Part shown: positions 7,631 through 28,927 of the stretch, piece after piece
Layout of the letters: each line of letters begins with the position of its first letter
Position numbering within the stretch: position 1 is the first letter of the stretch
Source of the DNA: Bacillota bacterium
GTDB taxonomy: Bacteria; Bacillota; Sulfobacillia; JAJZYS01; JAJYTV01
DNA length: 64,000 bases
NCBI GenBank assembly: GCA_021799275.1
Contig: JAJZAT010000005.1
Span: forward strand, 1-64,000
Direction: 5' to 3'
Notes under the pieces: model-generated
Database searches by the model: none
Told to the model about the DNA's origin: nothing
The model's input: the letters and a program-made list of their open reading frames with translations, nothing else
Program-made: the position numbers and the translations under genes

Positions 7631-7698
7631 GTCGCGGCCGTCAGAGTCCCACTGAGATCGTGTAGCCTACTCGGAAGTCGTGGGAGGACGGTGAGGCC

Positions 7699-9098: not shown

Positions 9099-9248
9099 GT
9101 GGAAACGCCCACTGACACGGAAGCCAAGGTGCTCGAGTTCGTCTGCCGTATGCGCGAAGAGCCCTTCAGCCCTGCGTGGTCGGCCGCTTATCGCGCCTGC
9201 GAGAGGAAAGGGTGGGTCTGCGAAACGCAGATCGCCTGGCCGTCGTGA
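9099..9248 (+). CDS. 49-aa hypothetical protein
   Basis: GTG at 9099, 6 bp after the preceding stop, with a modest SD-like AGGTAGAG. The frame encodes a balanced sequence (TEAKVLEFVCRMREEPFSP, then AWSAAYRACERKGWVC) with two Cys and a Trp-rich end. It looks like a genuine small helical protein. Its last 61 bp overlap, tail to tail, the 3' end of the sedolisin gene on the other strand. Confidence 0.45.
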   Translation: METPTDTEAKVLEFVCRMREEPFSPAWSAAYRACERKGWVCETQIAWPS

Positions 9249-12200: not shown

Positions 12201-12868
12201 GGAGTGACGTGATACGCCGTCTGCATCTCGAGCGCCGTGTGGTTGAGCGCGTCAAACGACGATCCTTTCACCGCGCCCTCGAGCTTCAGCATGCTGACCG
12301 GCTGCAGCAGGCTGTCGAGGCCTAGGATACCGGTGACCATGCCTTGTAGTGCCGCCGGCACTGAGAGTCCGGCGGACGGCAGGTAACCCTTCTGGCCTTC
12401 GTACGTGTAGTTCTCGAGCTGTGTGCGGAAGGCCGAATCCACCTGCGCCGCGGTGCCTTCGAAGCTCAAGGCCAGGCCGTCCGGCTCTTCACCGATGTAC
12501 ACGAAACCCTGACCCTGCAGGTATTGCTCGACGGCCGCGGCATTGACCTGGCTCGCGCCGTACTGCTCGGCCACCTGCTGGCTTGTCAACTGCAGATGGT
12601 GCTGGGTGTCGGTCTTGGCGGCGCTCATGAGTCCACCAGGGTCCTGGGATGCCAGGCCGACCAGGAAGCGAACCTGCTGATTCCCAGGAACAGCCCCCAC
12701 CGCTGAGGCGAGATGTTTCTGGATCAACGGGCTGAGACTGCCTGGCAGACTGGCGTAGCCGACAGCCGGTGCCGCTGCCGCCACCTGCATTCCCGCCGCG
12801 AGCACGAGAAGTCCACTCGCCACGCCCAGGAGTTTACGAATGACACGCAGAGCCGCTCCCTCCCTCAC
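9188..12868 (-). CDS. secreted sedolisin (S53, kumamolisin-like) protease with Ig-like tail
   Basis: Start chosen at GTG 12868 (AGGA upstream), giving a basic N-terminus and a signal segment (LLGVASGLLVLAAGMQVAAAA); 1226 residues. A pro-kumamolisin activation domain spans about 45-195. The S53 catalytic domain spans about 205-610: Glu286 and Asp290 in DETSVDVE, Asp385 in AAAGDGD, and the nucleophile Ser501 in LGTSLGAPSWAG. A C-terminal calcium-site region contains FHDITSGTNG and GPGWDPVTGLGTPD. Roughly 600 further residues form IPT/Big-like beta domains. Family members are acid-active endopeptidases. The last Ig-like repeat looks cut short (see findings). It lies just downstream of the SLH array, in the same direction. 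Confidence 0.93.
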   Translation of the reverse strand: MREGAALRVIRKLLGVASGLLVLAAGMQVAAAAPAVGYASLPGSLSPLIQKHLASAVGAVPGNQQVRFLVGLASQDPGGLMSAAKTDTQHHLQLTSQQVAEQYGASQVNAAAVEQYLQGQGFVYIGEEPDGLALSFEGTAAQVDSAFRTQLENYTYEGQKGYLPSAGLSVPAALQGMVTGILGLDSLLQPVSMLKLEGAVKGSSFDALNHTALEMQTAYHVTPLYQNGYDGQGETIAVATWAEYDPNDVLAFDGQMGLPQNQFVNKAPFQVIDPQGYADQQTGQDETSVDVEWSHAFAPGAQQEVAVGDLGPPKAQDFELSLYDVYSALAAGTSDPSTGLVTPNVITTSWGYPEWEAPPETNQVLDELFASIAAQGITMFAAAGDGDVQDMNVIFPASDPYMLGVGGTQVALNQDGTIAAEKAWGQAPFNQFYTASTGGYSTQFSAPPWALSAQESYSPSSLITPSAPYLPGMRGVPDVSLNAFGYLGAYQGAWYGFLGTSLGAPSWAGIYADMDQMAKAQTGGAGLGFVAPALYSVAGQASSPFHDITSGTNGQWNAGPGWDPVTGLGTPDVAALAQDLVNYLQAGGATNPDPFISVVTPSAEDGSNAWRGILDPLIGMDTPGMNVPLTDAIVAGSMTEISGSGFGSVAGAVYLVSNDLAVQVSLPVVAWKSNAITLDTTGTINANPGIYKLVVEVPGLARPLVTSVALESGIALLNLSLGASPTINGPLSVDQYSVDNAVYANGEISAIVRTLETYLSGGSIPFEMPAAIFVPGLSTPEQPIVGSSSLDDFTQTGDNVLVTLTSPSAQLLYVTMNPVNVNPVPLYGTDMWGYPEYVVPAGEPLAAIDPTAGPVGVIVQDASNPAMVAPAQALIDFLPGDPVTYSVTPLGDTTDGTTVQTATYDPSQAVPIALQVLDPNSNVIRDQPSSWWVTLNDGVATVNAAVYYSQDSGRTWIQATPDSVGSATYDVPGPGPTLISIPDANVGDLFYAWVSAPAPADLIPWIATAPAEIALSVVPQSTLSLKAQGAPQPAALNAVGVAVYDQQGSLVSGATDQISLAVQGSGVTIYDQNKDPVVPNLDGTYPLTLQQGQAEFYYGTLTSGQVKFTAVDESVYLRPAVLTQTIQPGPADTLGLNVFSSASVGSRGFGENPAQVVVVGALDTYGNLATGFDDQVGLLVSGGSGITVWDAGGHEIEPQAGVYKEQAHDGQAICVSQTHPFLSQAR

Positions 12869-13093
12869 AGAGTCCTGCAACCTGACTCTGTCACGGAAGG
12901 CTATGACGGCTGTGTCACTCGTAGCCGCCGAACGGTGGGACAGCGGCCCGGTCGCCGTCGCAAGAGGGCCGATGTGCTCCGGGTCGTGGGCCATGAAGGG
13001 GAAACAGGGCTATCGACTGTTGTTCGCTACGGGTGTAACCGGTACGGTAGCGGGCGCCCACACACGTACCCAAGCGACAGGTCGCCTACCCGG

Positions 13094-13128
13094 AAAATAC
13101 GGGGCACGCACCTCGCGGTGCGCGCCCC
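13094..13128 (-). terminator. Rho-independent terminator of the first SLH gene
   Basis: A 12-bp stem with one A.C mismatch (13101-13112 / 13117-13128, loop TCGC). On the minus strand it is followed by GTATTTTCC. It lies 22 bp after the stop of the SLH gene ending at 13151. Confidence 0.75.
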
Positions 13129-13150
13129 GATCCGCTCTCGTGCCGGCAGG

Positions 13151-16100
13151 TCAGTTCTGGTAGGTGAGCTGCAGGACCAGCTTGCCGGTGCCGTTGGTTG
13201 GCTTTGGAATCGTCAGTGTGTCGGTGTACGACGTGCTGCCGGTGCCTGCGGTCGTGTAGGTGAACGCGACGGCGCCGTTGGCCAGCGTCAGGTCGAGTGT
13301 GAGTGTCCCGCTGGTGCTACCTAGATATGATGTCGAGCTGGTCGCGGTGTCATCGGTGAGAGTCAAGGTGAATTGCTGCGATGCACCGCTGCCCGAGGTG
13401 ATGGCGTTACCGTAGGTGTCCACCAACTGGATCACACCCTGGTACGTTGTGTTGTTGCTAAGGCCCGAGATGCCTGCGCCGTATGTGGAGCCTTCCACGG
13501 TGGCGAGCGTCCAGGGCCCACCCTGGTACGCCGGAGCCGGGAATGCCACCTCGGGACTCTTCGGCGCTCCACTCGGGGCCTCTAGCGCCAGGTAGGCGGC
13601 GTCGCTCGGCGCCGGTGTTTGCGATGCGCTTGCGGTCACCGCGCTGGAGGCCGTGCTCAATTCGAAGGTGAGGGTCTGCTTCGCGGTGGAGGTCAAGACC
13701 ACCGGCAACGTTGCGGCCCCGTTCGTGAAGTTGAGAGAACCAAGCTGACCTGAGGAGGTCCCTCCAGGTATCACGACGGTCGTGGTCGGGTTCGAACCGG
13801 TGGACGTGGTCGCCGCGATGCCCAAGGCCGTCGGCTCAGAGCCGTTCGGCGACACCGCGAGGCCGCCAACCGTCAGGCTCACGCTCGACGCAAACGATCC
13901 ATTGCCGAGGTTGCCAAAGGCGTCTACGGCATGGATCTGATAGTCGTAAGCGCTGCCCACCACCGTGTTGCCAGACGGCGCAGTCACGCTGGTGATGACC
14001 GCAGGTGCCGCGCTCACGACGTTCGCACTAAGCGTCTGCACGCTCGACGTACCGTTCACCTGGACGCTGAAGCTGGTGTTCGGTTGGGCGTTCACTGGTT
14101 GGATGTAGAGATCCGCGACACCGTTCTGGAACGTCAGGTCGATCGTTCCCGTTCCGGCCGCGTTGAGGTACTCACCACCCGTGATACTCCCGCTGTTGTC
14201 CACGGCGGCGCCCACGGTGGCGTCGTCACCGTTTGGCGACTGTGCCAGCAGGTCGGGACCGCTCGCGGGAGCGGATATCTCGACGGGGAATGTGCCGTTG
14301 AGGTTCTTGCCGTACTGGTCCTGGGATGTCAGCTGGATTTCCTGGACTGAGCCCGCCAGGACATTCGTCTGCAGGCTGGAGGGCGTGAGGGCAGTTGGGG
14401 TCTGCTGGTAGGTGGCGGTAAGGTAGTACGTGTTGGCCGTGGTGTTGACGTACCAGAACGGCTGGGACAACGCGCCCGCCGGGACCGTGTACGTGGTCAC
14501 GTTGGCGTTGTAGGGATTGTCCGGCCGGAAGCTGCCGCCTTGGTTGCCGTCCGACAGCACTGCCGTCGACGCGAGCGATGCGATGGTCGGGTTGCCCTGG
14601 GCGTCCACTGGCTCTAGGTAGACCTCCACCGGGGTGTCGGCCTGGACGCTGATTCCTGAACCACCGCTGCCAACCGGCGTGGATACGTTCGCACCGGATG
14701 TCGAGAAGAAGTCGAACCCGGTGAGATTCCCGGCCATGATCACCATCGGCACGGTCGTGCTTGGCCCGGACCCTATGGAGGCGTCCTGGGCCGTAATCGA
14801 CAGTTGACCCGCCGCCCAGGCCTCCGCGTCGATCGTCGCCTGTCCGCCCGAGAGCTGCACCGTCCACTGGTTTGTGCCGGTCTCAGGGACCGATCCACCT
14901 CTGGCGTAGGTGAGGGCTGTCAGCGACCCTGAGCCTGAGAACGTGAGGGTCACCTTGTCGTTCGTGCCGACGGGATTCTGGTACTGGTCGAGAGCCTTGA
15001 TCGTCAGGCTCACCATATCGCTCGAGGTCGCGACATAGTTGCTGTTCACGTCGTGCCCGGCGGAGTCCGAACCTTGCGCGTAGTCGAGGGGCGTGACCGT
15101 GAGCTGCGTCGCCACGGTGTTCTGCACGGAGATCGTCGGCTCCGGCGAAGGGGACATCGCGGTGCCGTTAACCGTCGCGCTGACATCGATCGTGTAGCTT
15201 TGGCCCACGTAGGGCAGGACGCTGACGGTAGCCACGAACTGACCGTTCGCGTTCGTATAGCCGGATGTCTGGCTGATGGTCACCGGATAGGCATTCGACG
15301 CCGGGCTGGAAAGCGTGACGGGGATGCCGCCCTGATCCACGGGATTGCCGTAGGCGTCGATGACCTGCACCGTCACGGTGGTGCTGGGGTTCTGAGCCCC
15401 CACGAACGCGCTGCCGACGCTGGCCGTAACGCCCGTGACACTGCCTGCCGTCACCTGGAACGAATCGGTTCCGGACGCGGAAAGCAGGTTCGTCGGGCTT
15501 AAGGCCTGCACCGTGTACGAGCCCACGCTGCCGCTGCTGCCGACAACCGTAAGACGGAACGAACCCGTGGACATCGCGGTCGAGTCCAGGTAACCGCCGG
15601 CGGTCGAGCTCTGCTGGTGACCGTCGACGTAGATGTTGGTCGCAAGTCCACCCGAACTGTTCTTGATGCTGATCAGCACCGGAATCGCGTCGGAGACGGG
15701 GTAGCCGTGGGCGTCGATCGCGCCGATGCCGTAGACGATGCCGGATGCTCCTGTGGCCTGGGTGACGCTGGTGGTCGCGGGCGGGTAGAGCGCGATGCCC
15801 GACGGCACCCCGGCGATTACCGCTGTCACCGTGGCGGTGGTGCTGGCGAGGCCCGCGCCGCTCGCCGTCAATGCGATGGCTCCCGTCTCGCCCTGGATGT
15901 CCTGGATCGTCACCGTAGCATACGGAGCGGCGGTGCCGGACTGCCCGTTACCGGAATAGACGAAGCTCTGCGCGGCCGTGCTGCCGCCTGCGAACGTGCC
16001 TGGTCCGGTGATGGTCACGGTGAAGGGATAGACGCCGTACAGCATCGGCTGGCCGCTCTGATCGAGAACCTGGACCTTGACGACAGCCGTTGTGCCGGAG

Positions 16101-17272
16101 ATGTTCGCCGAGATGTACTGCGGGGCCGAGATGGACAGGGTCGCTGCGGCCTGCATGGCGCTTGTCAGCGTCGCGGTGGCCTGGCGGCCCGTGCCTGTGA
16201 TGTTCGCATCGGTGGCGGTTAGCGTCGTTGTCGCCCCCGGCACCGATCCAGCGGTGATCGTGAAGCTGGCCACGCCGTTGACCGCTGTAGCCGTGCCGGG
16301 ATTGATGCCGGACACCGCTCCCCCGCCACTTGCAGCGAGGATGATCTGGTCCGTGTTGTCATTCGCGACGATGTTGCCGTTCTGGTCCAGGATGTCGACG
16401 GTCACCGTGTACTGCGAGTACCCGTTGGCTGCGATCTGCGCCGGCGTGACGATCTTGAGCGACGCTGGCGTTCCGTAGACGGCGATCTGGGCGGTTCCCG
16501 TGACCGCCGCGCCGCTTGCCTGGTAGGTGGCCGTCACCGTGTACGTGCCAGGGCTGCTCGCGACAAACGTACCGCCAGAGATCAGGGCCTGCGACGAGTT
16601 GACCGCGTAGGTCACGGTTGCGCCACTCACGACGGCCCCCTGCGGATTCTTGACGGCGGACGAAAGCTGGACCTGCTGGCCGACGCCGACGTCTGTCGCC
16701 GAGGGCGTAAGGCTCACGCTCCAGGTGCCCTGGGACACCTGGGACGCGGCAAACTTCTGCAGGAAGTGGGGCGTGTCCGCGACCGTGATCGCTTGGCCGG
16801 GTCGGAAGTAGCCGTCGGGATACCCCGAGACGAGCCCCAGCCTGACCGCCTCGTTGATGTAGCCTCTCGCCCAGGATGGAATGCCACCGTTGTCCCTGAA
16901 CGTCGTAGCCTGCGTGGCCAGCGCCTGGGCCGCCGACCCGTCATTCAGGGCAAGCACCTCGATCTTGGCGATCTCCTCCCGGGTCAGAGAGGCGTTCGGC
17001 TCGAATTTGCCCTGGGTTACCCCTGAAATGATGCCGTTCTTGTATGCCGCTTCAATGTAGCCGTAGTACGGGCTGGTGGACGGAACGTCGGCGAAGTCGG
17101 GAACCTGGGGGTAGACAGGCTGGATGCCGGCCGTACGATCGAATTCGTAGATGAATTCCGCCCGGCTCACGGGTTGCGGTGGCCGCGCCGCCGCCCCTGC
17201 GATCGCAGGCGTGGTGGCGAGCATCAGGATCGCGGTCGTCAGGGTCGCGACAACGGCGCGCTTTGTTCGCAT
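13151..17272 (-). CDS. SLH-domain surface protein with Ig/Big-like repeats (paralog 1)
   Basis: The ATG at 17272 has GAGGAGG 11 nt upstream; 1373 residues, the longest of four paralogs. It has a signal peptide (AILMLATTPAIAGAAA). SLH motifs cover about 35-180: FADVPSTSPYYGYIEAAYKN with LTREE, and TFRDNGGIPSWARGYINEAV. These are expected to bind secondary cell-wall polymer. The rest is a chain of Ig-like/Big_1-type domains recognisable by repeated 'V.VLDQSGQPMLYG', 'AIDAHGYPVSDAIPV' and 'VQVIDAYGNPVDQGG' elements. It is an S-layer or S-layer-associated protein, exported and wall-bound. Compared with paralogs 2-4 it carries extra C-terminal beta domains. Confidence 0.9.
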   Translation of the reverse strand: MRTKRAVVATLTTAILMLATTPAIAGAAARPPQPVSRAEFIYEFDRTAGIQPVYPQVPDFADVPSTSPYYGYIEAAYKNGIISGVTQGKFEPNASLTREEIAKIEVLALNDGSAAQALATQATTFRDNGGIPSWARGYINEAVRLGLVSGYPDGYFRPGQAITVADTPHFLQKFAASQVSQGTWSVSLTPSATDVGVGQQVQLSSAVKNPQGAVVSGATVTYAVNSSQALISGGTFVASSPGTYTVTATYQASGAAVTGTAQIAVYGTPASLKIVTPAQIAANGYSQYTVTVDILDQNGNIVANDNTDQIILAASGGGAVSGINPGTATAVNGVASFTITAGSVPGATTTLTATDANITGTGRQATATLTSAMQAAATLSISAPQYISANISGTTAVVKVQVLDQSGQPMLYGVYPFTVTITGPGTFAGGSTAAQSFVYSGNGQSGTAAPYATVTIQDIQGETGAIALTASGAGLASTTATVTAVIAGVPSGIALYPPATTSVTQATGASGIVYGIGAIDAHGYPVSDAIPVLISIKNSSGGLATNIYVDGHQQSSTAGGYLDSTAMSTGSFRLTVVGSSGSVGSYTVQALSPTNLLSASGTDSFQVTAGSVTGVTASVGSAFVGAQNPSTTVTVQVIDAYGNPVDQGGIPVTLSSPASNAYPVTISQTSGYTNANGQFVATVSVLPYVGQSYTIDVSATVNGTAMSPSPEPTISVQNTVATQLTVTPLDYAQGSDSAGHDVNSNYVATSSDMVSLTIKALDQYQNPVGTNDKVTLTFSGSGSLTALTYARGGSVPETGTNQWTVQLSGGQATIDAEAWAAGQLSITAQDASIGSGPSTTVPMVIMAGNLTGFDFFSTSGANVSTPVGSGGSGISVQADTPVEVYLEPVDAQGNPTIASLASTAVLSDGNQGGSFRPDNPYNANVTTYTVPAGALSQPFWYVNTTANTYYLTATYQQTPTALTPSSLQTNVLAGSVQEIQLTSQDQYGKNLNGTFPVEISAPASGPDLLAQSPNGDDATVGAAVDNSGSITGGEYLNAAGTGTIDLTFQNGVADLYIQPVNAQPNTSFSVQVNGTSSVQTLSANVVSAAPAVITSVTAPSGNTVVGSAYDYQIHAVDAFGNLGNGSFASSVSLTVGGLAVSPNGSEPTALGIAATTSTGSNPTTTVVIPGGTSSGQLGSLNFTNGAATLPVVLTSTAKQTLTFELSTASSAVTASASQTPAPSDAAYLALEAPSGAPKSPEVAFPAPAYQGGPWTLATVEGSTYGAGISGLSNNTTYQGVIQLVDTYGNAITSGSGASQQFTLTLTDDTATSSTSYLGSTSGTLTLDLTLANGAVAFTYTTAGTGSTSYTDTLTIPKPTNGTGKLVLQLTYQN

Positions 17273-17382
17273 GGTGTCGTGGGCCTCCTCCTGGAGCCAG
17301 CTTGGTTCCAACTTTTATGTTATGCGCACAGGCGGCTGAAGTTGCCGGAAGCCGAAACCGCAAACGTCTGTCCGTAGCGAGC

Positions 17383-17408
17383 AAAAGGGGGAGGGGTGTC
17401 CCTCCCCC
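17383..17408 (-). terminator. Rho-independent terminator of SLH paralog 2
   Basis: A perfect 9-bp stem (17387-17395 / 17400-17408, loop GTGT), followed on the minus strand by TTTT (17386-17383). It starts 9 bp after the stop of the gene ending at 17418. Confidence 0.85.
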
Positions 17409-17417
17409 TAGCCGGCC

Positions 17418-20294
17418 TCAGTAGGCGGTGATGTGGTACGAGCCTGCGACAGGGTTCTGATAGTAAACTACTTGCCGGGCTTGGCCTGGAGACAGTTGGA
17501 AGCTAGTTATCGGTGCGCCGCCACTGCTAAGACTGAACGTCCCGTCCGAGCCATCACTCAACCGCACCGTTTCCGCCGTCGTAAGTGTTGTCTCATTGCC
17601 ATACTCGTCAACCGGTGCGACAAAGAGCTCTACAGGCGTATTCGCCATCACCGTCTCGTTGTTGGTGGCCGTGTTGTTCCCTGAACTGTCCAGCACCTGA
17701 TAGCCCCAGAATCGCCCTGGGACAACGGTGAAGTTTCCGACGCCGGTGGAACCGCCTGCTATGGACGTATCCGTGGCGGTCAGGCCAACAACGCCAGCCT
17801 GTTCGGCAATGGCGGTAACGGTGACGGTGCCGCCAGTTGCGAGCGTCGTGGACCATTCGTCTGTGCCTATCGGGGTCAACGTGCTACCTGTCGAATACTC
17901 AGGTACGAGGCCCTTGCTTGAAAACTGCAGGTTGACAGTGGAACTGGGTTCATTAGTCACGGGGTTGCCGTACTGGTCCACCGCCGCAATGGTAATCTGC
18001 ACCGTGTCGCTTGCCTCTGCAGTCGTCGTGCTATGCGCAACCGCGTAGCTGCCCGAAGAGTCGCCGCCCTGGTAAGTGTCCTTGAAAGAGACGGAGAGGT
18101 TCCCGGCAACCGTGTTCTCCACGGTGAAGCTCGCAGATTGCGTTGCGAAGCCAGCCCCACTAACTTGGACCGCGTAAGTGTTCCCCACGTAGACCGGGGC
18201 GGTGGCCTTGATGCTCGCTATTCCGCCCACGGTAGTCGCGCTAGTTGCGCTCAGAGTGATTCCGGGGGACGAGTTGGTGGGTGCGTTGGCAAAGTCCACT
18301 ACTGTGCCCGTAACCGGAACGACGTTTCCGTACAGATCCTCCAAAGTGGCACTGACGGTCGCCGTTGGATCGGAAAGCGGAACGTACTGTGGTGCCGTCA
18401 CGCTCACTCTGGCGACTGGTCCCGGCGTCTCGATGAAGGTCGCCACCGTGGCAGCGGCCAGCTTGCCGTTTGGATCCGTAACGGAAACGGTGTAGGTTCC
18501 AGCGTCAGCGGTAGTCCCGGTATCCGTTATTGTAAAGTGGCCATTCGTAGCGGCGTTGTCGTCAAGAACACCACTATTACTCTGCGTATATCCGTCAATC
18601 TTGATGTTGTTTGCGACACTCCCGTTTTTATCCACCTGGATCTGCAGCACCTGGTTCGATCCTACGGGATATCCGTGAGCGTCAACAACTGCTACGCCGA
18701 AAGTCAATCCGGTGGCCGCGGCAGACTCGGAGAAAGAGGCGTTGGCGGGGGGAGCCACCTGGATCGTGGTCGCAGGGCCTGCCACCACAGCATCTAGCGT
18801 CGCCGTAGCGGGTTTGAGTCCGGTCGCGTTCACAGTGAACGTGACGGTGCCAGTCTTACCTTGCACAGCCTGGATGGGAACACTGACGCTCGCGGGCGAT
18901 GCCGGATTGCCGGTCCCTGTATACAGGTACCCTTCTTGCCCGGTCGAGCCATTGGCAAAAGTGGCAGCACCGGCCAACGAAACAGAGAGGGGCACAGAGC
19001 CGAAGAGCATCGGTTCCGATGCCTGGTCGAGCACCTGAATCTTGACCGCCGTCTCGTTGCCCGAATTCGCAGCCAGATAGCCGGGGGCCGATATGCCAAG
19101 TGACGTCGGCTGTTCAGCTACCGACGTAAGCGTTAGCTGTGCGGGTGTCGGGTTGGATAGCAGCGTGCCGCCGGATGAGTACATCGCTGCATCCAGAGTG
19201 TCCGTCTGGCCAGGCACTAGGCCTGCCTGAACAGTGAATTTCGCAACGCCCTGTTGGATAGCTGCTGCCGTGCCCTCCTGCAAAGCCTGGACAGAGTTGA
19301 GCGGAACGGCCGGCACACTGGGCGTGACGATCGATGTTGCGCCGCCGTGCGCTCCATAGTACAAGACGACATTGCCTGTTGCGTTTCCGACTATGTTACC
19401 ATTCTGATCGACAAGTTCTGCCGTGATGTTCTGTTGCGAGGCGCCGTCGGCAACGATGGGACCGCTCGGGACCAACCTGATTGCCACTGGGAGTCCGTAG
19501 ACCGTGACAGAAACAAGTCCGCTAACTGTGCCACTAGTAGCCTTCACCGTGTACACGCCGGGGCTGGAGGCAATGAACTGATTACCGCTGAGGATCACGT
19601 CGGAGCTGTTCGTGGAGTAGGTGATGGGGGCTCCAGTGATGACCGTCCCGGAAGCATCTTCTACGGTGGCCGAGATCTGCACCATTTGGCCGACTGCGGC
19701 CGACGGGCTGGATGCCGTCACGGTGATGCTGGCCGGAACCGACCCGCTCGTCGGTGCTCCATGGTTGAGCACCGCGACGAACTGCCTGATGAAAGCGGCT
19801 TCATCGGCCGAAGTGATGTCCGAGCCTGGGTCGAAGGTGCCGTTCGTGTAGCCTTTGACCAAGCCGAGTTTAACTGCCTCAAGCACATAGCCGCGGGCCC
19901 AAGTAGGAATCTGAGCATTATCTTTGAAGTTGGAACGCTGGCCCATAAGCGCTTGAGCCTGCGACGTGTCACCCAGGGCGGTGACCTCTATCTTTGCCAT
20001 CTGCGCCCGGGTGAGAAGGTCCGTCGGGCCAAATTTTCCATTACCTAACCCTTCGATGTAGCCTTTCTGATACGCCGCCTCGATGTAGCCGTAATACGGC
20101 GAAGACGCGGAAATATCCGTGAAGTCGGACTGAGCAGGAGACACAGGCGCAAGTCCAATGGCCCGATCCAAGTCATACACGAACTGCTGACGGGTCACGT
20201 GTACCGGCCCAGCTGCGAAAGCCCCAGCGCTTGTGCAGCCTATCGTCGCCAGGGTTATCAGGGCCGCAATCGCGATCCTTTGAGCCCTCCGCAT
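17418..20294 (-). CDS. SLH-domain surface protein with Ig/Big-like repeats (paralog 2)
   Basis: The ATG at 20294 has a strong AAGGAGGG SD at 5-6 nt; 958 residues. Signal peptide IAIAALITLATIGCTSAGAFAA; a Cys is present, but the context favours ordinary cleavage after AFA. SLH motifs cover about 30-175: FTDISASSPYYGYIEAAYQK with LTRAQ, and NFKDNAQIPTWARGYVLEAV. Ig-like domains follow, with the paralog hallmarks 'LVDQNGNIVGNATGNV', 'VLDQASEPMLFG' and 'VVDAHGYPVGSNQ'. Probably an S-layer component or wall-anchored accessory protein. Base composition is visibly lower in GC than in paralogs 1 and 4, suggesting a different history or expression level. Confidence 0.9.
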   Translation of the reverse strand: MRRAQRIAIAALITLATIGCTSAGAFAAGPVHVTRQQFVYDLDRAIGLAPVSPAQSDFTDISASSPYYGYIEAAYQKGYIEGLGNGKFGPTDLLTRAQMAKIEVTALGDTSQAQALMGQRSNFKDNAQIPTWARGYVLEAVKLGLVKGYTNGTFDPGSDITSADEAAFIRQFVAVLNHGAPTSGSVPASITVTASSPSAAVGQMVQISATVEDASGTVITGAPITYSTNSSDVILSGNQFIASSPGVYTVKATSGTVSGLVSVTVYGLPVAIRLVPSGPIVADGASQQNITAELVDQNGNIVGNATGNVVLYYGAHGGATSIVTPSVPAVPLNSVQALQEGTAAAIQQGVAKFTVQAGLVPGQTDTLDAAMYSSGGTLLSNPTPAQLTLTSVAEQPTSLGISAPGYLAANSGNETAVKIQVLDQASEPMLFGSVPLSVSLAGAATFANGSTGQEGYLYTGTGNPASPASVSVPIQAVQGKTGTVTFTVNATGLKPATATLDAVVAGPATTIQVAPPANASFSESAAATGLTFGVAVVDAHGYPVGSNQVLQIQVDKNGSVANNIKIDGYTQSNSGVLDDNAATNGHFTITDTGTTADAGTYTVSVTDPNGKLAAATVATFIETPGPVARVSVTAPQYVPLSDPTATVSATLEDLYGNVVPVTGTVVDFANAPTNSSPGITLSATSATTVGGIASIKATAPVYVGNTYAVQVSGAGFATQSASFTVENTVAGNLSVSFKDTYQGGDSSGSYAVAHSTTTAEASDTVQITIAAVDQYGNPVTNEPSSTVNLQFSSKGLVPEYSTGSTLTPIGTDEWSTTLATGGTVTVTAIAEQAGVVGLTATDTSIAGGSTGVGNFTVVPGRFWGYQVLDSSGNNTATNNETVMANTPVELFVAPVDEYGNETTLTTAETVRLSDGSDGTFSLSSGGAPITSFQLSPGQARQVVYYQNPVAGSYHITAY

Positions 20295-20412
20295 GTTCGC
20301 CCTCCTTGTCACCCGCTAAAACTCTCGTTTTCCTGCCCCTCTTTGCCGCATGTGATCCCCCATTGGAAGGAACACCTGTGGATTGTCGCCGTGACGCATC
20401 GTCGTTGAACGG

Positions 20413-20450
20413 AACGGGGGGAGGAGAGCCTCGATGACCCCCCTCCCGTT
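20413..20450 (-). terminator. imperfect hairpin after SLH paralog 3
   Basis: G-rich (20413-20424) and C-rich (20438-20450) arms pair over about 11 bp with one mismatch and one wobble, 13 bp after the stop of the gene ending at 20463. There is no T-tract on the minus strand, so termination is only likely, not clear. Confidence 0.4.
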
Positions 20451-20462
20451 CACCCAAATCCC

Positions 20463-23400
20463 TTACCAAGCCACCTGGAACGTTAATACCGAGTTGCCGC
20501 CCACTTGCAGGGCCAGGGTATCGGTGCCGGATCCAGAGGCTGGTGCAGTGAAGGTGTTGCCATTCACGTTGCCTGAGGTTGTAAGGTCGACCACGGAGCC
20601 GCTCACACTGGTGGAGAAAGCGATGGTGCCACCGTTCTGGACCACCAGAGCACCGTTGCTGTTCTGGCCGATGCCCGCCGTGTAGCCCACCCAGTAAGGT
20701 GCCGTAAGGTCGACTCCCGTTTGGGCCGTACCAGTTACGTAGTACAGGGAGACACCGCCAGAACCAGGGGAAACCGGAACACCTTGGGTTGCGCCCAAAT
20801 TGGCGCCTTGGGCGCTTCCCACCCTGAATTGGCCGCCAGCCTGGGAACTCTGCGGCACAACGAGGAAGTTGGTTGTTGGGATCGCTACGTTATCCGCTAC
20901 GTCGACGGCTTTGAGAACGAAGGACGCTGGGCTGTTGGCCGCCACGGACTCACTGCTGGCGACATTGCCGGAACTGTCAAATACCGCGAACCCAGCCACC
21001 TGTCCCGGCTGCACGCCAATAGTTGAACTTCCCGAAGCCGCCGGTACAACCGACTCGTCGGTCGCCTGAAGAGTGACTGTTCCAACCGCACCAGCCACCG
21101 CGGCCAGAACCGCTTGGCCACCAAAGAGTGTCACGGTGTATGTCCCGTTTGTGTTCGCGGTCACGTTGCCAAGGCCGCCGCCGCCGAGCACAGCTGTACT
21201 CCAGTTTGTTAGCGTGCCGGTACCACCGGTCCCCAAGACAACCTTGTCGGCCGTTTGGACAGTGTTGCCATACTGGTCCGTGGCCCTGATGATGACCTTT
21301 ACCTGATCCCCGGACTGAACCATCGCGGGGTTTTGGTAGTACGGCCCGGACGTATTGTCCGCCATGGAGACCGACACACTCGTTGCCGTAGTGCTTTCGA
21401 GCGTGAACGAGGCGGGAGTCGTCGTGTAGCTCTGTCCGTCCAGCGTGGCACTTGCGGTTACAGGGTAACTGGTGCCAACGTAAGCGGGCACCGTAAAGGT
21501 GGCTTGCGCCTGCCCGGAACTGTTGGTGGTGACGGTTTGGGTGGCTGGACTGATGCCGCTCGCAGTAGACGTGAAGGTTATGGGTACGCCGGCAAGCGCA
21601 ACCGCATTTCCGTATGCGTCAGTCACTTGGGCGGTATAGGTCGCGATCGGCTGTGCGGCACTGATGAACTGGGGCGCAGTGATCCGGATGATCTTGGCGG
21701 CACCAGCGGTCTCGGTAAAGCTCACGACCGCCGACGGCGCCAGCGCTCCGTCAGGGTCTGTGGCTTGAACGGTGTACGTCCCGGCGTCTGCACCTGCACC
21801 GTTGTCGGTCAGGGTGAAGTGGCCGTTCGTAACTGCACTCGGGTCGGTGGCGCCGCTGGTCGCAGACTGTGGGAACCCGTCCACGTGAATGTTCGTCGCG
21901 ATTTGCCCTGAACTGTTTTTGACCGTGATCACAACCGAGTGCGCGCTTTCCACTGGGTAGCCGTGACTGTCTACAATCGCAACACCAAACTGCAACCCGA
22001 CGCCGCCACTGTCAGCGCTGAATGATGCGGTTGAAGGTGCGGTAACTTGGATTGCACTGGGCGCACCAGCGATCACAGCCGTTACCGTTGCTGAACCAGA
22101 CGTAAGGCCAGTGGCGGAGGCCGTCACAGATATGGTACCGGTGGACCCCTGGACGTCCTGAATGGTCACCGGCGTCCCGTTGGAGTTCGCCCCTGTGCCG
22201 CTGTACACATAACTCTCGGGGGTTGTGCCGCCACCAGGGAAGGTGGCCGGACCCGAAATGCTGATCGTGAAGGCGTACGTACCGTAGATGATTGGCTGCC
22301 CGCTCTGGTCCAGCACCTTGACCATCAGAGTCTGGGTCGTCCCAGCCGCATTCACGGCTAAGTAGGGCGAGACCGGCGTTACAGACAGCGAACTGGCGGT
22401 CTGCGCCGCCGTGCTAACCGTGGTGGTAGCCGTCATGGTACCTGATGTGGCGGTGAGTGTGGCAGATGCTCCTGGCAGGCTCCCGCCTACTACGGTGAAC
22501 GACGCCACACCGTTGACCGCAGCCACAGTGGCACCAGAACTTGCCACCGATCCAGACATTACACCGACCGCGGAGGAGTTGTTTGTTTGAAGCGTAATCA
22601 TCCCACTGTCATTGCCAACGACATTGCCGTTGGCGTCCACGAAGCTCACTGTGACGCTCGATGCCGCACTACCGTTGGCGACGATACTCTTCGGTGCACT
22701 GATCTTAAGACCTACGGCTGACCCGTACACTTGAATGGACGCTGTACCAGTTGAACCATCAGCCGTTGCTTCAATTGTGTACAGACCAGGTTGGGAAGCA
22801 ACAAATGAACTGCCAGAAACAATAGCACTGCTTGCATTGGCGCTGGTTACGGCGAAGGTCACCGGGACATCGACGGCCGCACCCGAAGAGTTTGTGACAA
22901 GCGCCACAAGGGTGACGAACTGGCCGGGGCTGACCAATGCAGGCGTTGCCGTAACCTTGATCGAGTAGGCCCCACTGCCGGAGCCTTCCATCGCAGTCGC
23001 CAGCTGCCCCAGAAGGTGCTGCTCTTGTGAGCTTGTGAGCTCTGCGTTTGGTTGGAAAGTTCCGTTGGGAAATCCCTTAAGGAGCCCGAGTGCGTTCGCC
23101 TCAGCGACGTATCCCACCAGTACGGTCGGTATGGTCGCGTTGTCGCTGAAGTTGGTCTTGGTAATCTGCTGTGCTTCGGCACCTTTGCCGAAGGCTATCA
23201 CTTCGTACTTCGCGGCTTCAGCACGCGTTAACGGCAGCGTCGGACCAAAGGTTCCATTTGAGAACCCGTTGGTTATGCCGGCCTGCGCAGCAGCCTCGAT
23301 GTAGCCATAGTACGCGTTGGACGCAGGCACATCACTGAACGTGGGCTTCGTGGGATAGACGGGTTTGATCCCAAGTTGCATGTCGAGCCTGTACACGAAG

Positions 23401-23510
23401 TCTGCCCTGGTCTCGTAGGCGGACGTCCCGGACGCCAACGCCGTTCCCGCAGACCCTGCCACCAGCAGGGCCATAGTCAGGGCGCCCAGCGCAGCCCGTA
23501 ACCCTTTCAC
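20463..23510 (-). CDS. SLH-domain surface protein with Ig/Big-like repeats (paralog 3)
   Basis: GTG start at 23510 with a GAGGGGG SD; 1015 residues. Signal peptide ALTMALLVAGSAGTALA. SLH motifs cover about 32-175: FSDVPASNAYYGYIEAAAQA with LTRAE, and NFSDNATIPTVLVGYVAEAN. The TRAE-type motif is the one associated with binding of pyruvylated wall polymer. At least six Ig-like units follow, including 'VKVLDQSGQPIIYGTYAF' and 'IVDSHGYPVESAHSVVI'. It ends in a compact beta domain (TDTLALQVGGNSVLTFQVAW). Most similar in layout to paralog 4. GC is lower than in neighbouring housekeeping genes. Confidence 0.9.
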   Translation of the reverse strand: MKGLRAALGALTMALLVAGSAGTALASGTSAYETRADFVYRLDMQLGIKPVYPTKPTFSDVPASNAYYGYIEAAAQAGITNGFSNGTFGPTLPLTRAEAAKYEVIAFGKGAEAQQITKTNFSDNATIPTVLVGYVAEANALGLLKGFPNGTFQPNAELTSSQEQHLLGQLATAMEGSGSGAYSIKVTATPALVSPGQFVTLVALVTNSSGAAVDVPVTFAVTSANASSAIVSGSSFVASQPGLYTIEATADGSTGTASIQVYGSAVGLKISAPKSIVANGSAASSVTVSFVDANGNVVGNDSGMITLQTNNSSAVGVMSGSVASSGATVAAVNGVASFTVVGGSLPGASATLTATSGTMTATTTVSTAAQTASSLSVTPVSPYLAVNAAGTTQTLMVKVLDQSGQPIIYGTYAFTISISGPATFPGGGTTPESYVYSGTGANSNGTPVTIQDVQGSTGTISVTASATGLTSGSATVTAVIAGAPSAIQVTAPSTASFSADSGGVGLQFGVAIVDSHGYPVESAHSVVITVKNSSGQIATNIHVDGFPQSATSGATDPSAVTNGHFTLTDNGAGADAGTYTVQATDPDGALAPSAVVSFTETAGAAKIIRITAPQFISAAQPIATYTAQVTDAYGNAVALAGVPITFTSTASGISPATQTVTTNSSGQAQATFTVPAYVGTSYPVTASATLDGQSYTTTPASFTLESTTATSVSVSMADNTSGPYYQNPAMVQSGDQVKVIIRATDQYGNTVQTADKVVLGTGGTGTLTNWSTAVLGGGGLGNVTANTNGTYTVTLFGGQAVLAAVAGAVGTVTLQATDESVVPAASGSSTIGVQPGQVAGFAVFDSSGNVASSESVAANSPASFVLKAVDVADNVAIPTTNFLVVPQSSQAGGQFRVGSAQGANLGATQGVPVSPGSGGVSLYYVTGTAQTGVDLTAPYWVGYTAGIGQNSNGALVVQNGGTIAFSTSVSGSVVDLTTSGNVNGNTFTAPASGSGTDTLALQVGGNSVLTFQVAW

Positions 23511-23662
23511 GGCTCACATCCCCCTCGTTTCACCTGACCGGTACTTTACTGAGGCACCAAAGGGGTAAACCTCGGTAGAGTTCCCTTTCGACCTACCGCG
23601 CTGGATACCTTTCTCACCGCGGCAAGGTAAGGCTGGTCGGCAAGTTCAGATGCAGCACGCTT

Positions 23663-23695
23663 AAAAAGAGAGGAGCCCCGGTCACCCGGGGCTCC
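23663..23695 (-). terminator. strong Rho-independent terminator of SLH paralog 4
   Basis: A perfect 10-bp GC stem (23672-23681 / 23686-23695, loop TCAC), followed on the minus strand by CTCTTTTTAAG. It is placed 12 bp after the stop of the gene ending at 23708. This is the cleanest terminator in the window and fits a highly expressed gene. Confidence 0.92.
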
Positions 23696-23707
23696 AGAGG
23701 TTGTTGC

Positions 23708-26620
23708 CTAGTTGACTGTCAGCGTACCGGTGCCCGTGCTGGCCGGCACGAAGTAGATCGTCACCGCAGTGGAACCCTGCGGGAAGTCGTACGTCGTGAC
23801 GCTGGTGCCACTGGCACTGCCGATACGGAAGTCGCCGCTGAAGCCGGTGCTCGGGTTGGTGACCGAGAGGTTGACAACGTTACTCGACGTGGTGCCGGTC
23901 GCCACCGTCGGGTTGCCCTCGGCGTCAATCGGCTCGAGCGTCAGGGCCACAGGCGTGTTGGCCGTGAACGACATCGAGCTGCCGTCCACCTCACTCCCAG
24001 AGGCGTTGAACAGGCCGTAGCCAGCCACCGGGCCAGGCGTGACCGCCATCGTGGCGTTCGCTGTCGGCTGCGATGCAACCGAGGCGTCCGTCGCCGTAAT
24101 GGTGACGGTGCCACTGGTGTACGCCTTAAGCGTCAGAGTGTAAGCGCCGGTCGTGGAGTTGAAGTCCGAGGCGGGGATGGAGCTTGGAGCAGTTCCACCG
24201 CTGGTGGTCTCCAGGGTGCCAGTGCCGCCATAGGACAGGTCGATCGTGTCTCCGGTGAGGATCGGATCGTTGTACTGGTCCTTTGCGTAGACCGTGACGC
24301 TGACCGTGTCACCGGCCTGGGCAATGCCCTGGCTCTGGTAGTAGTTGCTGCTGCTGTTGGTGTCCATCACCGACGCAGTCACCTGCGTCGCCACAGCGCT
24401 TTCCACCGTGAAGCTGGTCGGGTAGGTGGCGTTGCTGATGGACGAGGCGGTGGCGTTGACGGTGTAGGCCTTGCCGGCATAGGTCGGCACGCTAGCCGTC
24501 ACGGTTGCAAGGCCATCGCTGTTGGTGTCAACCGTAGTGGCCGACAGCGACACATTGCTCGAGGAAACTCCCGCCGGCAACGTGCCGAACGAGAACGTGA
24601 CCGGTACGCCGGCGTCGGCGACGCTGTTGCCATCGCCGTCGATGACCTGTGCGGAGATGGTCACGGTCGGGTTGGCAGCAGACACGTAGGTGGCGCTGGA
24701 GACGCTGAGCGCGCTCGCGCTACCAGTGGTCTGCGTCAAGGTGCTTGTCGTAGCCGCCGTAAGTCCGAGGCTGCCTGCGTCAGAGACTGCCACCGTGTAG
24801 GTGCCAGCGTCTGCGCTGTTGGTGGCCGTGTCCGTCACCGTGAAGGTGAAGCCACCGACTGGACTTGTGACAGTGGCTCCAGAGGAGCTGTAGGAGACGG
24901 TCAGCGGAGTACCGTTGCTGTCCGCGGCGGCTACGCTGAACGTACCAGACGGCGTGGTGCCGCTGCCACCGTCGACAACGTTGCCACTGCCGTCGGTGAT
25001 CGCGATCAGCACGGATTCCTGGGAGGTCAGGTTGACCGGATAACCGTGCGAGTCGGCAAACGACACCGTGTAGGAGCCGGAAGCCGAGTTCTGCGCGAAG
25101 GACGTCGAGGTCGGCGCTGCGAGCTCGATGGCAGCCGGGCTGCCTGAGATCTCAGCGGTGATCATGCCAGTCCCGGACTTGAGGTTCGTGCCAGACGCCG
25201 TGACAGTGATGGCGCCGGTGACGCCCTGCTCGCCCGCGATGGTCACAAGGCCATCCGAGTTAGCCGGAGTGTTCACGCTGGGGATACCAGCAGACGTGGT
25301 GTAGCTGGCACCACTGAACGCGTAGCTACCCGTGGTGTCGCTCGTACCGTTGATGGTTGCGGGCCCACTGAGGCTGACCGAGAACGGGTAAGTTCCGAAC
25401 AGCATGGGCTGACCAGACTGGTCAAGAACCTCAACGTTTACAGAGGCGGTCTCGGTGCTACCGTTCACGGACATGTACTGCGTCGACGGCGATACGCTGA
25501 GCGACGTAGCAACCTGAGCCGTGTCGGATACCGAAGCCGTGGTGTCGTAGCTGGTACCGATGGTGCTGTTGTTGGTGGTGGCGGTCAGCGTCGCGGTGGC
25601 GCCAGGAACGACGCCGCTCTGCAGCACGAACGTGCCAACACCGTTCACCACAGTCGTTGTGTCGGTGGCCTTGAAGTCGCTGTTGGCGGCGTTGCTGGAA
25701 TTGGCAACATCAGCCGCAAACGCGTTGCTGGTGGCCAGAGTGACCGAGTCGGTGCTGTCGTTCGCCACGACGTTGCCGTTGGCGTCGACGATGCTCACCG
25801 TAACGTTGGTCTGCGAAGCGCCGTTCGCCACGACAGACGTCGGCGCGGAGATCTTGAGGCCGGCCGGGTCACCGTAGACGCCGATCGTCACCGTAGCGGT
25901 GTTGCCAGCGGCGTCGGTGCCGGTCACGGTGTAGTTGCCCGCCGCCGAGGCGACGAACGAGCTACCGGAGATCAGCGCGCTCGACGCGTTGGCGCCGGTC
26001 ACGGTGTAGCTGACCGAACCGACCGCTGTCGAGGACAGCGTGACGATCTGGCCGATCCCGACGTCGGTCGAGGAGGCCGTCACCTTGAAGCCAGCCGCGG
26101 CCTGGACGGCCTTGAGCTGCGCGATCAGGTGGGTCTCCTGCGCGGTCGTCAGGTAAGCCTCAGGGCCGAAGGCGCCGCTCGTGAAGCCGAGCATCAGCTT
26201 CAGCGAGTTGGCCTCGGCGACGAAGCCCACGAGGGCCGTCGGGATGGAGGCGTTGTCGGTGAAGGTCGTCGAGGTCTCGGTCGGGGTGTAGTTGCCACCC
26301 TCGTAAGCCTCGACCAGGATCTTGGCAGCCTCAGCGCGGGTAATCGGCATGGTCGGTCCGAAGAGACCCTTGGCGATACCGTTGATGAAGCCCTTCTGAT
26401 ACGCGGCCTCGATGTAGCCGTAGTCCGCGTTGGACGCCGGCACATCCGTGAAGTCGGGCGTCGACGGCGTGACCGGCTGGATGCCCAGCGACTGGTCAAG
26501 CTGCACAATGAAGTCAGCGCGTGTTTCGTTCGTCACGCTGGCTGCACTGGCCGCGCCCATCGTCCCGAGGACCATGGCGGCCGTAGCTACGACCGACAAG
26601 ATGGTCCGGAACTTGTGCAT
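23708..26620 (-). CDS. probable main S-layer protein: SLH plus Ig-like repeats (paralog 4)
   Basis: The ATG at 26620 has a near-perfect AAGGAGGAG SD; 970 residues. Signal peptide LSVVATAAMVLGTMGAASAAS. SLH motifs cover about 30-175: FTDVPASNADYGYIEAAYQK with ITRAE, and TFTDNASIPTALVGFVAEAN. The Ala/Thr/Ser/Val-rich body of Ig-like units includes 'VEVLDQSGQPMLFGTYPF', 'FADSHGYPVNLTSQE' and 'VIDGDGNSVADAGVPVTF'. The strongest SD, strongest terminator, long untranslated leader and very biased Gly/Ala/Thr/Ser composition make it the best candidate for the bulk S-layer protein. Predicted exported and anchored to the wall. No csaB-type wall pyruvyl transferase gene is in the window. Confidence 0.9.
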   Translation of the reverse strand: MHKFRTILSVVATAAMVLGTMGAASAASVTNETRADFIVQLDQSLGIQPVTPSTPDFTDVPASNADYGYIEAAYQKGFINGIAKGLFGPTMPITRAEAAKILVEAYEGGNYTPTETSTTFTDNASIPTALVGFVAEANSLKLMLGFTSGAFGPEAYLTTAQETHLIAQLKAVQAAAGFKVTASSTDVGIGQIVTLSSTAVGSVSYTVTGANASSALISGSSFVASAAGNYTVTGTDAAGNTATVTIGVYGDPAGLKISAPTSVVANGASQTNVTVSIVDANGNVVANDSTDSVTLATSNAFAADVANSSNAANSDFKATDTTTVVNGVGTFVLQSGVVPGATATLTATTNNSTIGTSYDTTASVSDTAQVATSLSVSPSTQYMSVNGSTETASVNVEVLDQSGQPMLFGTYPFSVSLSGPATINGTSDTTGSYAFSGASYTTSAGIPSVNTPANSDGLVTIAGEQGVTGAITVTASGTNLKSGTGMITAEISGSPAAIELAAPTSTSFAQNSASGSYTVSFADSHGYPVNLTSQESVLIAITDGSGNVVDGGSGTTPSGTFSVAAADSNGTPLTVSYSSSGATVTSPVGGFTFTVTDTATNSADAGTYTVAVSDAGSLGLTAATTSTLTQTTGSASALSVSSATYVSAANPTVTISAQVIDGDGNSVADAGVPVTFSFGTLPAGVSSSNVSLSATTVDTNSDGLATVTASVPTYAGKAYTVNATASSISNATYPTSFTVESAVATQVTASVMDTNSSSNYYQSQGIAQAGDTVSVTVYAKDQYNDPILTGDTIDLSYGGTGTLETTSGGTAPSSIPASDFNSTTGAYTLTLKAYTSGTVTITATDASVASQPTANATMAVTPGPVAGYGLFNASGSEVDGSSMSFTANTPVALTLEPIDAEGNPTVATGTTSSNVVNLSVTNPSTGFSGDFRIGSASGTSVTTYDFPQGSTAVTIYFVPASTGTGTLTVN

Positions 26621-27157
26621 GCATTCTCCTCCTTCTGCTCAGGATACTTAGGGAACAAAGAAGTGCCCGGGACATCTCTCAGGCCCCGCGGCATCCCCCC
26701 TTTCCCTGCGTGATGTTTCTTCCGCCTGCGCAACCCCGACTGGTATAACTTCGCAACGAAGCTCCCGGTTTCTGGGGACAGGCGGTACCTGGGGTCACAA
26801 GTAATTACGTGCGCACGAGGCGCCGAAACCCAGACCTGCCCTCGAGGAACTCGATGGACCGGGTCTGGCTGTTACAGGCGCTCCATGGACAACAGCGGGA
26901 CTTCGCCGCGTTGGCCAGGAGTTCCTGCCGAGGCGCTCCTCTGGCGCCCCTGCAAGATTCCAGCCCGCGTGGCTTGCTTGACCACGCCATCCCCATAGAC
27001 GCCGCTCGTGCCAAGTTCTTTCGCCCCAAGCGCGAATTTGCACAAACGGCACGTCCAAGGTCCGCTGGCTCAGCAGGTCGGTCCTTGACCCCCTGCCACC
27101 CCAGGCCACCTCGGACAATCTATGGCAGGGCCCGGGACGTGATGATTGTAAGGCAAG
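26621..27157. other. intergenic stretch: long leader of the S-layer gene
   Basis: About 540 bp without a convincing gene. Two overlapping frames, one on each strand, are Arg/Pro/Ser-rich with no SD and look like chance frames. The half nearest 26620 contains a small inverted repeat (CTTCG-CAA-CGAAG, 26750-26762) beside an AT-rich TTATAC-like -10 on the minus strand (about 26744-26749). A promoter there would give a leader of about 120 nt, a length common for S-layer mRNAs. Confidence 0.4.
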
Positions 27158-27213: not shown

Positions 27214-28827
27214 TCAGGACCGGCCTTCCCTGTGGCGCAGCGCGGCGCCGACGAAGGCCCGGAACAAAGGGTGCGGCCGATTCGGCCTCGAGCGAAGCTC
27301 GGGGTGGAACTGCGTGCCGAGGAAGAACGGGTGGTCTCTCAGTTCCATCATCTCGACGAGATTGCCGTCCGGGCTCTGCCCCGACGCGATGAATCCCACC
27401 GCGTCGAGTCCCTCGCGGTAGGCGTTGTTCACCTCGAAGCGGTGGCGATGGCGCTCGTAGACGAGTTCCTCACCGTAGGCCGCGGCGGCCAGGGTGTCCG
27501 GGGTGATCTTGCAAGGGTAGGCGCCAAGGCGCATCGTGCCGCCCTTCTGCTCCACGTCCGCCTGGTCCGCCATCAGGTCGATGACGGGGTCTGGCGTGTC
27601 GACGTCGATCTCCGTCGTGTTGGCGTGCCGAAGACCCATGGCGTCCCTCGCCACCTCGATCACCGCCACCTGCATGCCGAGGCAGAGGCCGAAATACGGC
27701 ACCTTCTCCTCGCGCGCGTAGCGCACGGCCCGGATCTTGCCCTCGACGCCGCGGGCGCCGAAGCCCCCCGGCACGAGGACGCCGTCCGCCTCCGCCAGAA
27801 GCGTCGCCGCCTCCAGGTCCTCGAGGCGCTCGGAGTCGATCCAGTCGATCTCCACCTGCGCCCCGTGGGCGATGCCCGCGTGGTGCAGGGCCTCCGCCAC
27901 GGAGAGATAGGCGTCGTGCAGGGCCACATACTTCCCGACCATCGCGATGCGCACGCGCCGCGAAGCCTGCTCCCGCCGCTCCACCATCGAGCGCCAGTCC
28001 CTGAGATCCGGCTGGCGCTCTGGGAGACCGAGCTTCTCGCAGACGATGCGGCCGAGTCCCGCTTCCTCCAGGATGAGCGGCGCCGCGTAGATCGTCCCGG
28101 GAGCGTCCGGATTCGGCACGACGGCTTCGCGCTCGACGTCGCAGAAGAGCGCGATCTTGTCGAGGAGATCCTTGGCGAGGGGCTTCTGGGACCTCGCCAC
28201 GATGATGTCGGGCGTGATGCCGATCGACCGGAGCTCCTTGACGGAGTGCTGGGTCGGCTTCGTCTTCGCCTCGCCCGACGCCTCGAGGTAGGGCACCAGG
28301 GTCACATGGATGTAGAGCGCGTCCTGGCGCTCGACGTCGTACTTGAGCTGCCGGATCGCCTCGAGGAACGGCAGGGACTCGATGTCGCCCACCGTGCCGC
28401 CGATCTCGCAGATCAGGATCTCGGCCCCCGAGGCCTCCTGCGCCCGCTTGATCCAGTCCTTGATCTCATTCGTGACATGCGGGATGACCTGCACCGTGCC
28501 GCCGAGGTAGTCGCCGCGGCGCTCCTTCTCGATCACCCGGCCGTAGATCTTGCCTGTGGTCGCGTTCGAGAGCTTGCCGAGAGAGACGTCCATGAAACGT
28601 TCATAGTGTCCGAGGTCGAGGTCCGTCTCGGCACCGTCGTCGGTGACGAAGACCTCGCCGTGCTGGAGCGGGCTCATCGTACCGGGATCCACATTTAAAT
28701 AAGGATCAAGCTTCTGCGCCGTGACACTGAAACCCCTGGCCTTCAGGAGCCGGCCGAGCGACGCGGCGGTGATCCCCTTGCCGAGGCCTGAGACGACGCC
28801 ACCGGTAATGAAGATGAACTTGGCCAC
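27214..28827 (-). CDS. pyrG: CTP synthase
   Basis: Converts UTP to CTP using ATP and glutamine, in the cytosol. The GTG at 28827 is set by GGAGGG 8 nt upstream and gives the canonical N-terminus [17 protein letters not shown]; 537 residues, the usual length. The synthase domain (1-265) contains [41 protein letters not shown] and MDVSLGK-type segments. The glutamine amidotransferase domain (about 290-537) has the oxyanion and nucleophile elbow [10 protein letters not shown] and the closing His/Glu in FHPE. It lies downstream of rpoE as in Bacillus but has its own promoter and hairpin leader (separate entries). Confidence 0.98.
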
Positions 28828-28845
28828 GCGAGATTCCCTCCGCTT

Positions 28846-28891
28846 CCCCAAAGCCCTTGGGGCAATAAAAAGAGCGGGCCGCCAGGGCCCG
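28846..28891 (-). promoter_or_regulatory. pyrG leader with terminator-like hairpin
   Basis: On the minus strand, a GC hairpin (28891-28886 / 28880-28875, 5-nt loop) is followed by CTCTTTTTATT, a typical intrinsic terminator. It can end rpoE transcripts and also lies at the very start of the predicted pyrG transcript, which would begin 5'-GGGCCC at about 28890. A second hairpin (CCCCAA / TTGGGG, 28862-28846) precedes the SD. In Bacillus subtilis, pyrG begins 5'-GGGC and is controlled by CTP-dependent G slippage and antitermination. The same start motif here suggests related control, but the hairpin geometry differs. Confidence 0.6.
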
Positions 28892-28897
28892 TAGAGC

Positions 28898-28927
28898 ATT
28901 CTACGGAGCCCAGGCGGCCGGCGTCAA
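28898..28927 (-). promoter_or_regulatory. sigma-A promoter for pyrG
   Basis: Minus-strand TTGACG (28927-28922), 18-bp spacer, TAGAAT (28903-28898). The -35 box overlaps the rpoE stop codon. The expected start falls at the GGG at 28890-28888. The -10 lies inside a 7-bp inverted repeat (CCGTAGA / TCTACGG). Confidence 0.75.

Follow-up and report, generated by a model that had tools for sequence, protein, structure and literature searches.

Why an uncultured, deep-branching Bacillota bacterium should carry four large surface-protein genes side by side, and what each of them might contribute, is the question raised by the array at positions 13151-26620 of the window (the whole stretch of 64,000 nucleotides analysed here, belonging to genome G000). 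The open reading frame list gives four full-length SLH/Ig paralogs, S1-S4, all on the minus strand and transcribed in the order S4, S3, S2, S1 (Table 1). The first-pass annotation had described four tandem same-strand genes of 958-1373 codons and had read them as a multi-gene locus of S-layer type, probably with separate transcripts, expandable, and possibly providing alternative coats. The open reading frames, together with the RBS-supported starts adopted for S1 and S2, agree with the description of the genes, and four paralogs at a single pyrG-linked site do make up such a multi-gene locus; the other proposals stood in part or not at all, as set out below. We consider it moderately probable (about 0.6) that this is an old, ordered, pyrG-linked locus of SLH-anchored Ig-domain S-layer proteins, in which S4 is the main component, with S3, S2 and S1 in accessory or conditional roles.

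Table 1. Features of the array and its flanks in the window (G008 is a MAG, YF1.bin87, from another genus of the same family)
Feature	Position	Strand	Description
pyrG (CTP synthase)	27214..28899	-	upstream of the array; syntenic anchor
S4 leader hairpin	26647..26709	-	about 60 nt, just 5' of the S4 ribosome-binding site
S4	23708..26620	-	970 aa; pyrG-proximal lead paralog; signal peptide, SLH anchor, Ig-like string; GC 0.643
Intrinsic terminator 3' of S4	23672..23695	-	10-bp stem, TCTCTTTTT tail; kept in G008
S3	20463..23510	-	1015 aa; SLH/Ig paralog; GC 0.601
GC-rich imperfect hairpin 3' of S3	20411..20462	-	no U tract
S2	17418..20294	-	958 aa; SLH/Ig paralog; RBS-supported start 20294, longest ORF reaches 20312; GC 0.591
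Intrinsic terminator 3' of S2	17387..17408	-	TTTT tail
S1	13151..17272	-	1373 aa; SLH/Ig paralog; RBS-supported start 17272, longest ORF reaches 17311; GC 0.649
Intrinsic terminator 3' of S1	13100..13129	-	13-bp stem, TATTTT tail
Secreted pro-kumamolisin-type (S53) protease	9188..12994	-	Ig-like tail; downstream of S1, same strand

The common architecture proposed earlier, i.e. signal peptide, SLH motifs and Ig-like units, is borne out. Each protein begins with a hydrophobic segment with an Ala-x-Ala-like end, read by eye as a signal peptide, and each has a Pfam SLH match (E-values from 1.5e-16 to 3e-26), while the Ig-like families Big_1, Invasin_D3 and GH2_C5 are matched across the set, the Invasin_D3 match being absent from S4. 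The four are alignable along their length with pairwise identities of 34.9-43.2% and blastp bit scores of 365-555, a paralogy far above chance, and S1 has about 400 additional C-terminal residues. The internal landmarks DQSGQPML.G, D.HGYPV and DAYGN.V can be seen in the alignment, with some substitutions in single members. All mature proteins are free of cysteine and acidic (pI 4.05-4.28), with a combined S, T, G, A and V content of 56-63%; mature S4 has a mass of 93 kDa and a pI of 4.05. A composition of this kind is usual in S-layer proteins.

The usual SLH anchor consists of three motifs forming a pseudo-trimer. Pfam finds two motifs in each of S1-S3 and one passing in S4, and the first motif is represented by its second half alone, seen in the S4 model as a lone TRADF helix accompanied by two helix pairs. 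In this AlphaFold2 model (mean pLDDT 72, pTM 0.35, nine sequences in the input), the N-terminal helical block is followed by beta-sandwich domains to the C-terminal end. A fold search with the model returned SbsB and Sap among the matches, ranked amid many unrelated multi-Ig proteins and with low TM-scores. Since the matches extend to multi-Ig proteins of every kind, the whole-protein fold match was dropped as a specific identity, and the matches of the predicted structure support the architecture type only. Each protein would be secreted and bound to the wall through its N-terminal SLH block, with a pyruvylated wall polymer as the ligand that we infer, and the rod of Ig-like domains would be exposed outward. 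The genome has one CsaB-like pyruvyl transferase gene, which speaks for the preferred reading, but its score of 188 bits lies below the curated cut-off of 213 (the relatives are similar), and this low score counts against the reading, as does the incomplete first SLH motif.

The first-pass annotation had listed three clear terminators and one imperfect hairpin, and this is what we observe: the hairpins after S4, S2 and S1 are perfect or near-perfect and U-tailed, and the one after S3 is U-less. The placement of the terminators suggests mostly separate transcripts, as was proposed, with the exception of the S3/S2 junction. At this junction G008 has a similar hairpin with a weak tail (three U among the first eight bases). 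As the hairpin between them has no U tract in the window and a weak one in G008, S3 and S2 may be transcribed together. A scan for sigma-70-like promoters gave sites no more numerous than in shuffled sequence, and transcript structure therefore stays a matter of inference.

The leader hairpin of S4 occurs in one copy each in G000, G008, G007 and G012, always ahead of the pyrG-linked lead gene. Over 61 genomes, a covariance model found two weak matches only beyond these four copies; as it was trained on the same four, their own scores hold by construction, and the scarcity elsewhere is the informative part. An Rfam search of the leader gave no family above chance, and a known riboswitch was rejected on this ground. 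In a MAFFT alignment of the four sequences no two-sided change was counted; by eye, a stem pairing GGGAA/TTCCC reads GCGAA/TTCGC in G012, and we claim no covariation from it.

The history of the array was followed in 15 species of the order, four of which, including G000, have the site 3' of pyrG assembled and such genes there. In all four (G000, G008, G007 and G012) pyrG lies upstream of the array or of the homologous gene(s); further upstream of pyrG in the window are argS and then a spermidine synthase gene. In G008, pyrG is followed by S4', S3' and S2', arranged as in the window, and these 1:1 orthologs are 46% (S4), 67% (S3) and 65% (S2) identical to their counterparts. This MAG is the one other source of the orthologous array, and its contig stops at the position where the S1 ortholog would come next. 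In G008, where the linkage could be tested, the genes thus sit together and are not scattered singly over the genome. The tree joins each of S2 and S3 to its ortholog with support of 100/100; the S4/G8a clade is not firmly supported at full length and better supported on the SLH part. Because the paralogs (about 35-43% identical) differ far more from one another than the S2 and S3 orthologs do (65-67%), the duplications are, judged by these identities, older than the split of the window's genus from that of G008, and the array is ancient.

The lower GC of S2 and S3, noted earlier and confirmed here (Table 1), recurs in G008, where their orthologs have 0.617-0.618 versus 0.660 for the S4 ortholog. 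A recent horizontal origin of these two genes was ruled out, since the orthologs are likewise GC-poor relative to S4, and the low GC reads as a lasting property of S2 and S3, not as a mark of recent transfer.

Gene number at the pyrG site does vary among relatives, and to this extent the idea of an expandable cassette stands: a single such gene lies 3' of pyrG in G012, from another family; two, for proteins of 1190 and 640 aa that each have an S4-type anchor, in G007; at least three in G008; and four in the window. In the 640-aa protein of G007 the anchor is of S4 type (67%) and the outer part is a different one, which speaks for rearrangement over longer times. These two observations might also be taken to indicate that one S-layer gene was recently amplified in tandem in this lineage and that the cassette is in active flux. 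However, expansion that is recent or ongoing does not fit the ordered 1:1 cross-genus orthologs of S2, S3 and S4, and for S2 and S3 it is contradicted by the identities given above, so that we regard such an amplification as very improbable.

None of the four proteins was matched in the DNA examined beside pyrG in G010 and G011. Elsewhere the site itself is often missing: pyrG is absent from 7 of the 15 assemblies of the order, and two more contigs (G001 and G003) end inside it, at about codon 343. Among five MAGs of the window's genus, pyrG is missing in three and cut at the contig end in two, which leaves the copy number of the array unreadable there. As the CTP synthase family is present in 14 of 14 control genomes, yet pyrG is missing or broken here, the absence of the array from such assemblies most likely reflects missing assembly. 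It seems that the region near the S-layer locus breaks metagenome assemblies.

Among the paralogs, S4 alone has a leader hairpin, and its codon usage is the best of the four. Ranked among local genes by codon usage relative to ribosomal protein genes, S4 reaches the 68th percentile and S1 the 40th, and S2 and S3 are at the 8th-9th. The conservation profiles also differ: S4 and its G008 ortholog are 65-75% identical over residues 1-300 and 26-52% over the remainder, while S2 and S3 are 52-85% identical to theirs throughout and evenly conserved. It would appear that the outer part of S4 diversified and its anchor stayed fixed. S4, which has a leader hairpin and a terminator to itself, most likely serves as the main lattice protein, and S3, S2 and S1 would most likely be accessory or condition-dependent coat proteins. 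We group S3 with S2 because of their similar codon usage, their even conservation and the U-less hairpin between them.

One might expect a dominant lattice protein to lead the local genes in codon usage. The codon usage of S4 is just moderately good, and other genes, e.g. that at 38209-39762, rank higher, which speaks against S4 as the main protein. The same observation would suit a different arrangement, in which all four are SLH-anchored accessory proteins (adhesins or S-layer-associated proteins) and the role of the true S-layer protein falls to another SLH protein or is not filled at all. Many SLH-anchored proteins are indeed encoded besides the array, as the 3.1-Mb genome of G000 contains 30 SLH-like matching stretches, some of them in a second tandem pair located on the array's own contig. 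On the other hand, the S-layer-like size and composition of S1-S4, which have no enzymatic domains, the conserved genomic position and the dedicated leader make a purely accessory role unlikely. It is also possible, as a tentative variant, that the locus encodes a fixed multi-component S-layer, in which a lead protein that has an RNA leader and diversifies its outer surface is combined with two or three slower-evolving paralogs as the constant second component.

The suggestion of alternative coats implies that the lattice is built at any moment from only one of S1-S4, depending on growth phase or condition, as is the case for Sap and EA1 of Bacillus anthracis. The assembly domains of Sap are Ig-like. 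Both B. anthracis proteins resemble those of the array in having a signal peptide, an SLH anchor and a long assembly region, with similar anchors and divergent assembly domains (the SLH parts of Sap and EA1 are 74% similar and the assembly domains 22% identical; PMC8056022). They differ in that there are two genes with three SLH motifs and a demonstrated growth-phase switch, whereas the array comprises four pyrG-linked genes with an incomplete first motif. The terminators after S4, S2 and S1, the presence of full-length paralogs that are alike in their anchors and diverge in their outer parts, and the precedent of the mutually exclusive Sap and EA1 (PMC8056022) are all compatible with alternation. 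However, exact DNA matches between paralogs reach 17 bp at most, blastn otherwise yields short stretches of 67-84% identity, and neither an invertible promoter nor a flanking inverted repeat pair was found across the array region. DNA-level switching is therefore not supported, gene conversion between the paralogs was ruled out for want of long identical DNA, and transcriptional switching in the Sap/EA1 style is possible by analogy. As S2 and S3 are conserved from end to end and poorly codon-adapted, a fixed minor role fits them as well or better. We found no positive evidence for alternative coats and consider them rather doubtful.

Multi-gene S-layer loci are already well known, and the present locus belongs to that kind. 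In Clostridioides difficile, the slpA locus contains 11 paralogs and a processing protease, and its main protein is highly variable (PMC5270738). Like the array, this slpA/cwp locus has a main S-layer gene amid paralogs and a surface protease, Cwp84. The anchor is CWB2 there and SLH here, Cwp84 is a cysteine protease and the neighbour of the array an S53 protease, and strain-level cassette exchange is documented for slpA/cwp, whereas the array is known from a cross-genus comparison. Viridibacillus arvi JG-B58, with several S-layer proteins in one bacterium, offers a precedent for a composite coat: the genes for Slp1-Slp3 are all expressed and two layers are superimposed (PMC4902306). Anchoring domains are partly missing there, unlike in the array, and the genes are not known to form an ordered orthologous array. 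Thin walls and outer protein layers have also been described in deep-branching Bacillota (PMC11448272).

A comparable arrangement exists in G035, which we take to be Symbiobacterium thermophilum. Two tandem secreted Ig-like proteins, with one SLH match each, are encoded on the same strand about 3-4 kb 3' of pyrG. They are 41% identical to each other but 25-32% identical to S1-S4, and two other ORFs intervene after pyrG.

What is new in the present locus is its age, its fixed order, the linkage to pyrG and the fact that the lead gene diversifies while its followers stay conserved. It keeps apart two things that are often lumped together, namely slow change in gene number and divergence focused on the outer part of one member. 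With pyrG as a syntenic marker, S-layer loci can be located in this uncultured order. Should S4 prove to be the main coat protein, a comparison of its outer regions across populations could show whether the change results from pressures on the surface, such as phages.

Downstream of the array, the S53 protease has a counterpart of interest in G009 (L075, 437-2851). The protein encoded there is 804 aa long and has two SLH motifs, and a stretch of its second half is similar (30% identity) to the protease part of the 9188-12994 protein. It is possibly a wall-anchored sedolisin. Because an SLH protein carries a stretch similar to the protease, an association of the S53 protease with the coat is plausible but unproven.

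Three further observations concern the surroundings. The gene at 38209-39762 (plus strand) encodes a predicted secreted protein of 517 aa; its codon adaptation is the best among the local genes examined and exceeds the ribosomal protein gene mean. Just beyond the window (G000 C35:64717-65409 and 68884-69405, L076) lies the second tandem SLH pair, whose members are 50% mutually identical, are separated by a predicted lipoprotein gene and show good resemblance to S1-S4 in the SLH part only. In G008, a 1.2-kb gap between the S4 and S3 genes (L065, about 6490-7670) contains, as read by eye, a transposase-like remnant and a repeated S4 C-terminal coding end, which suggests a local rearrangement of S4 in that genome.
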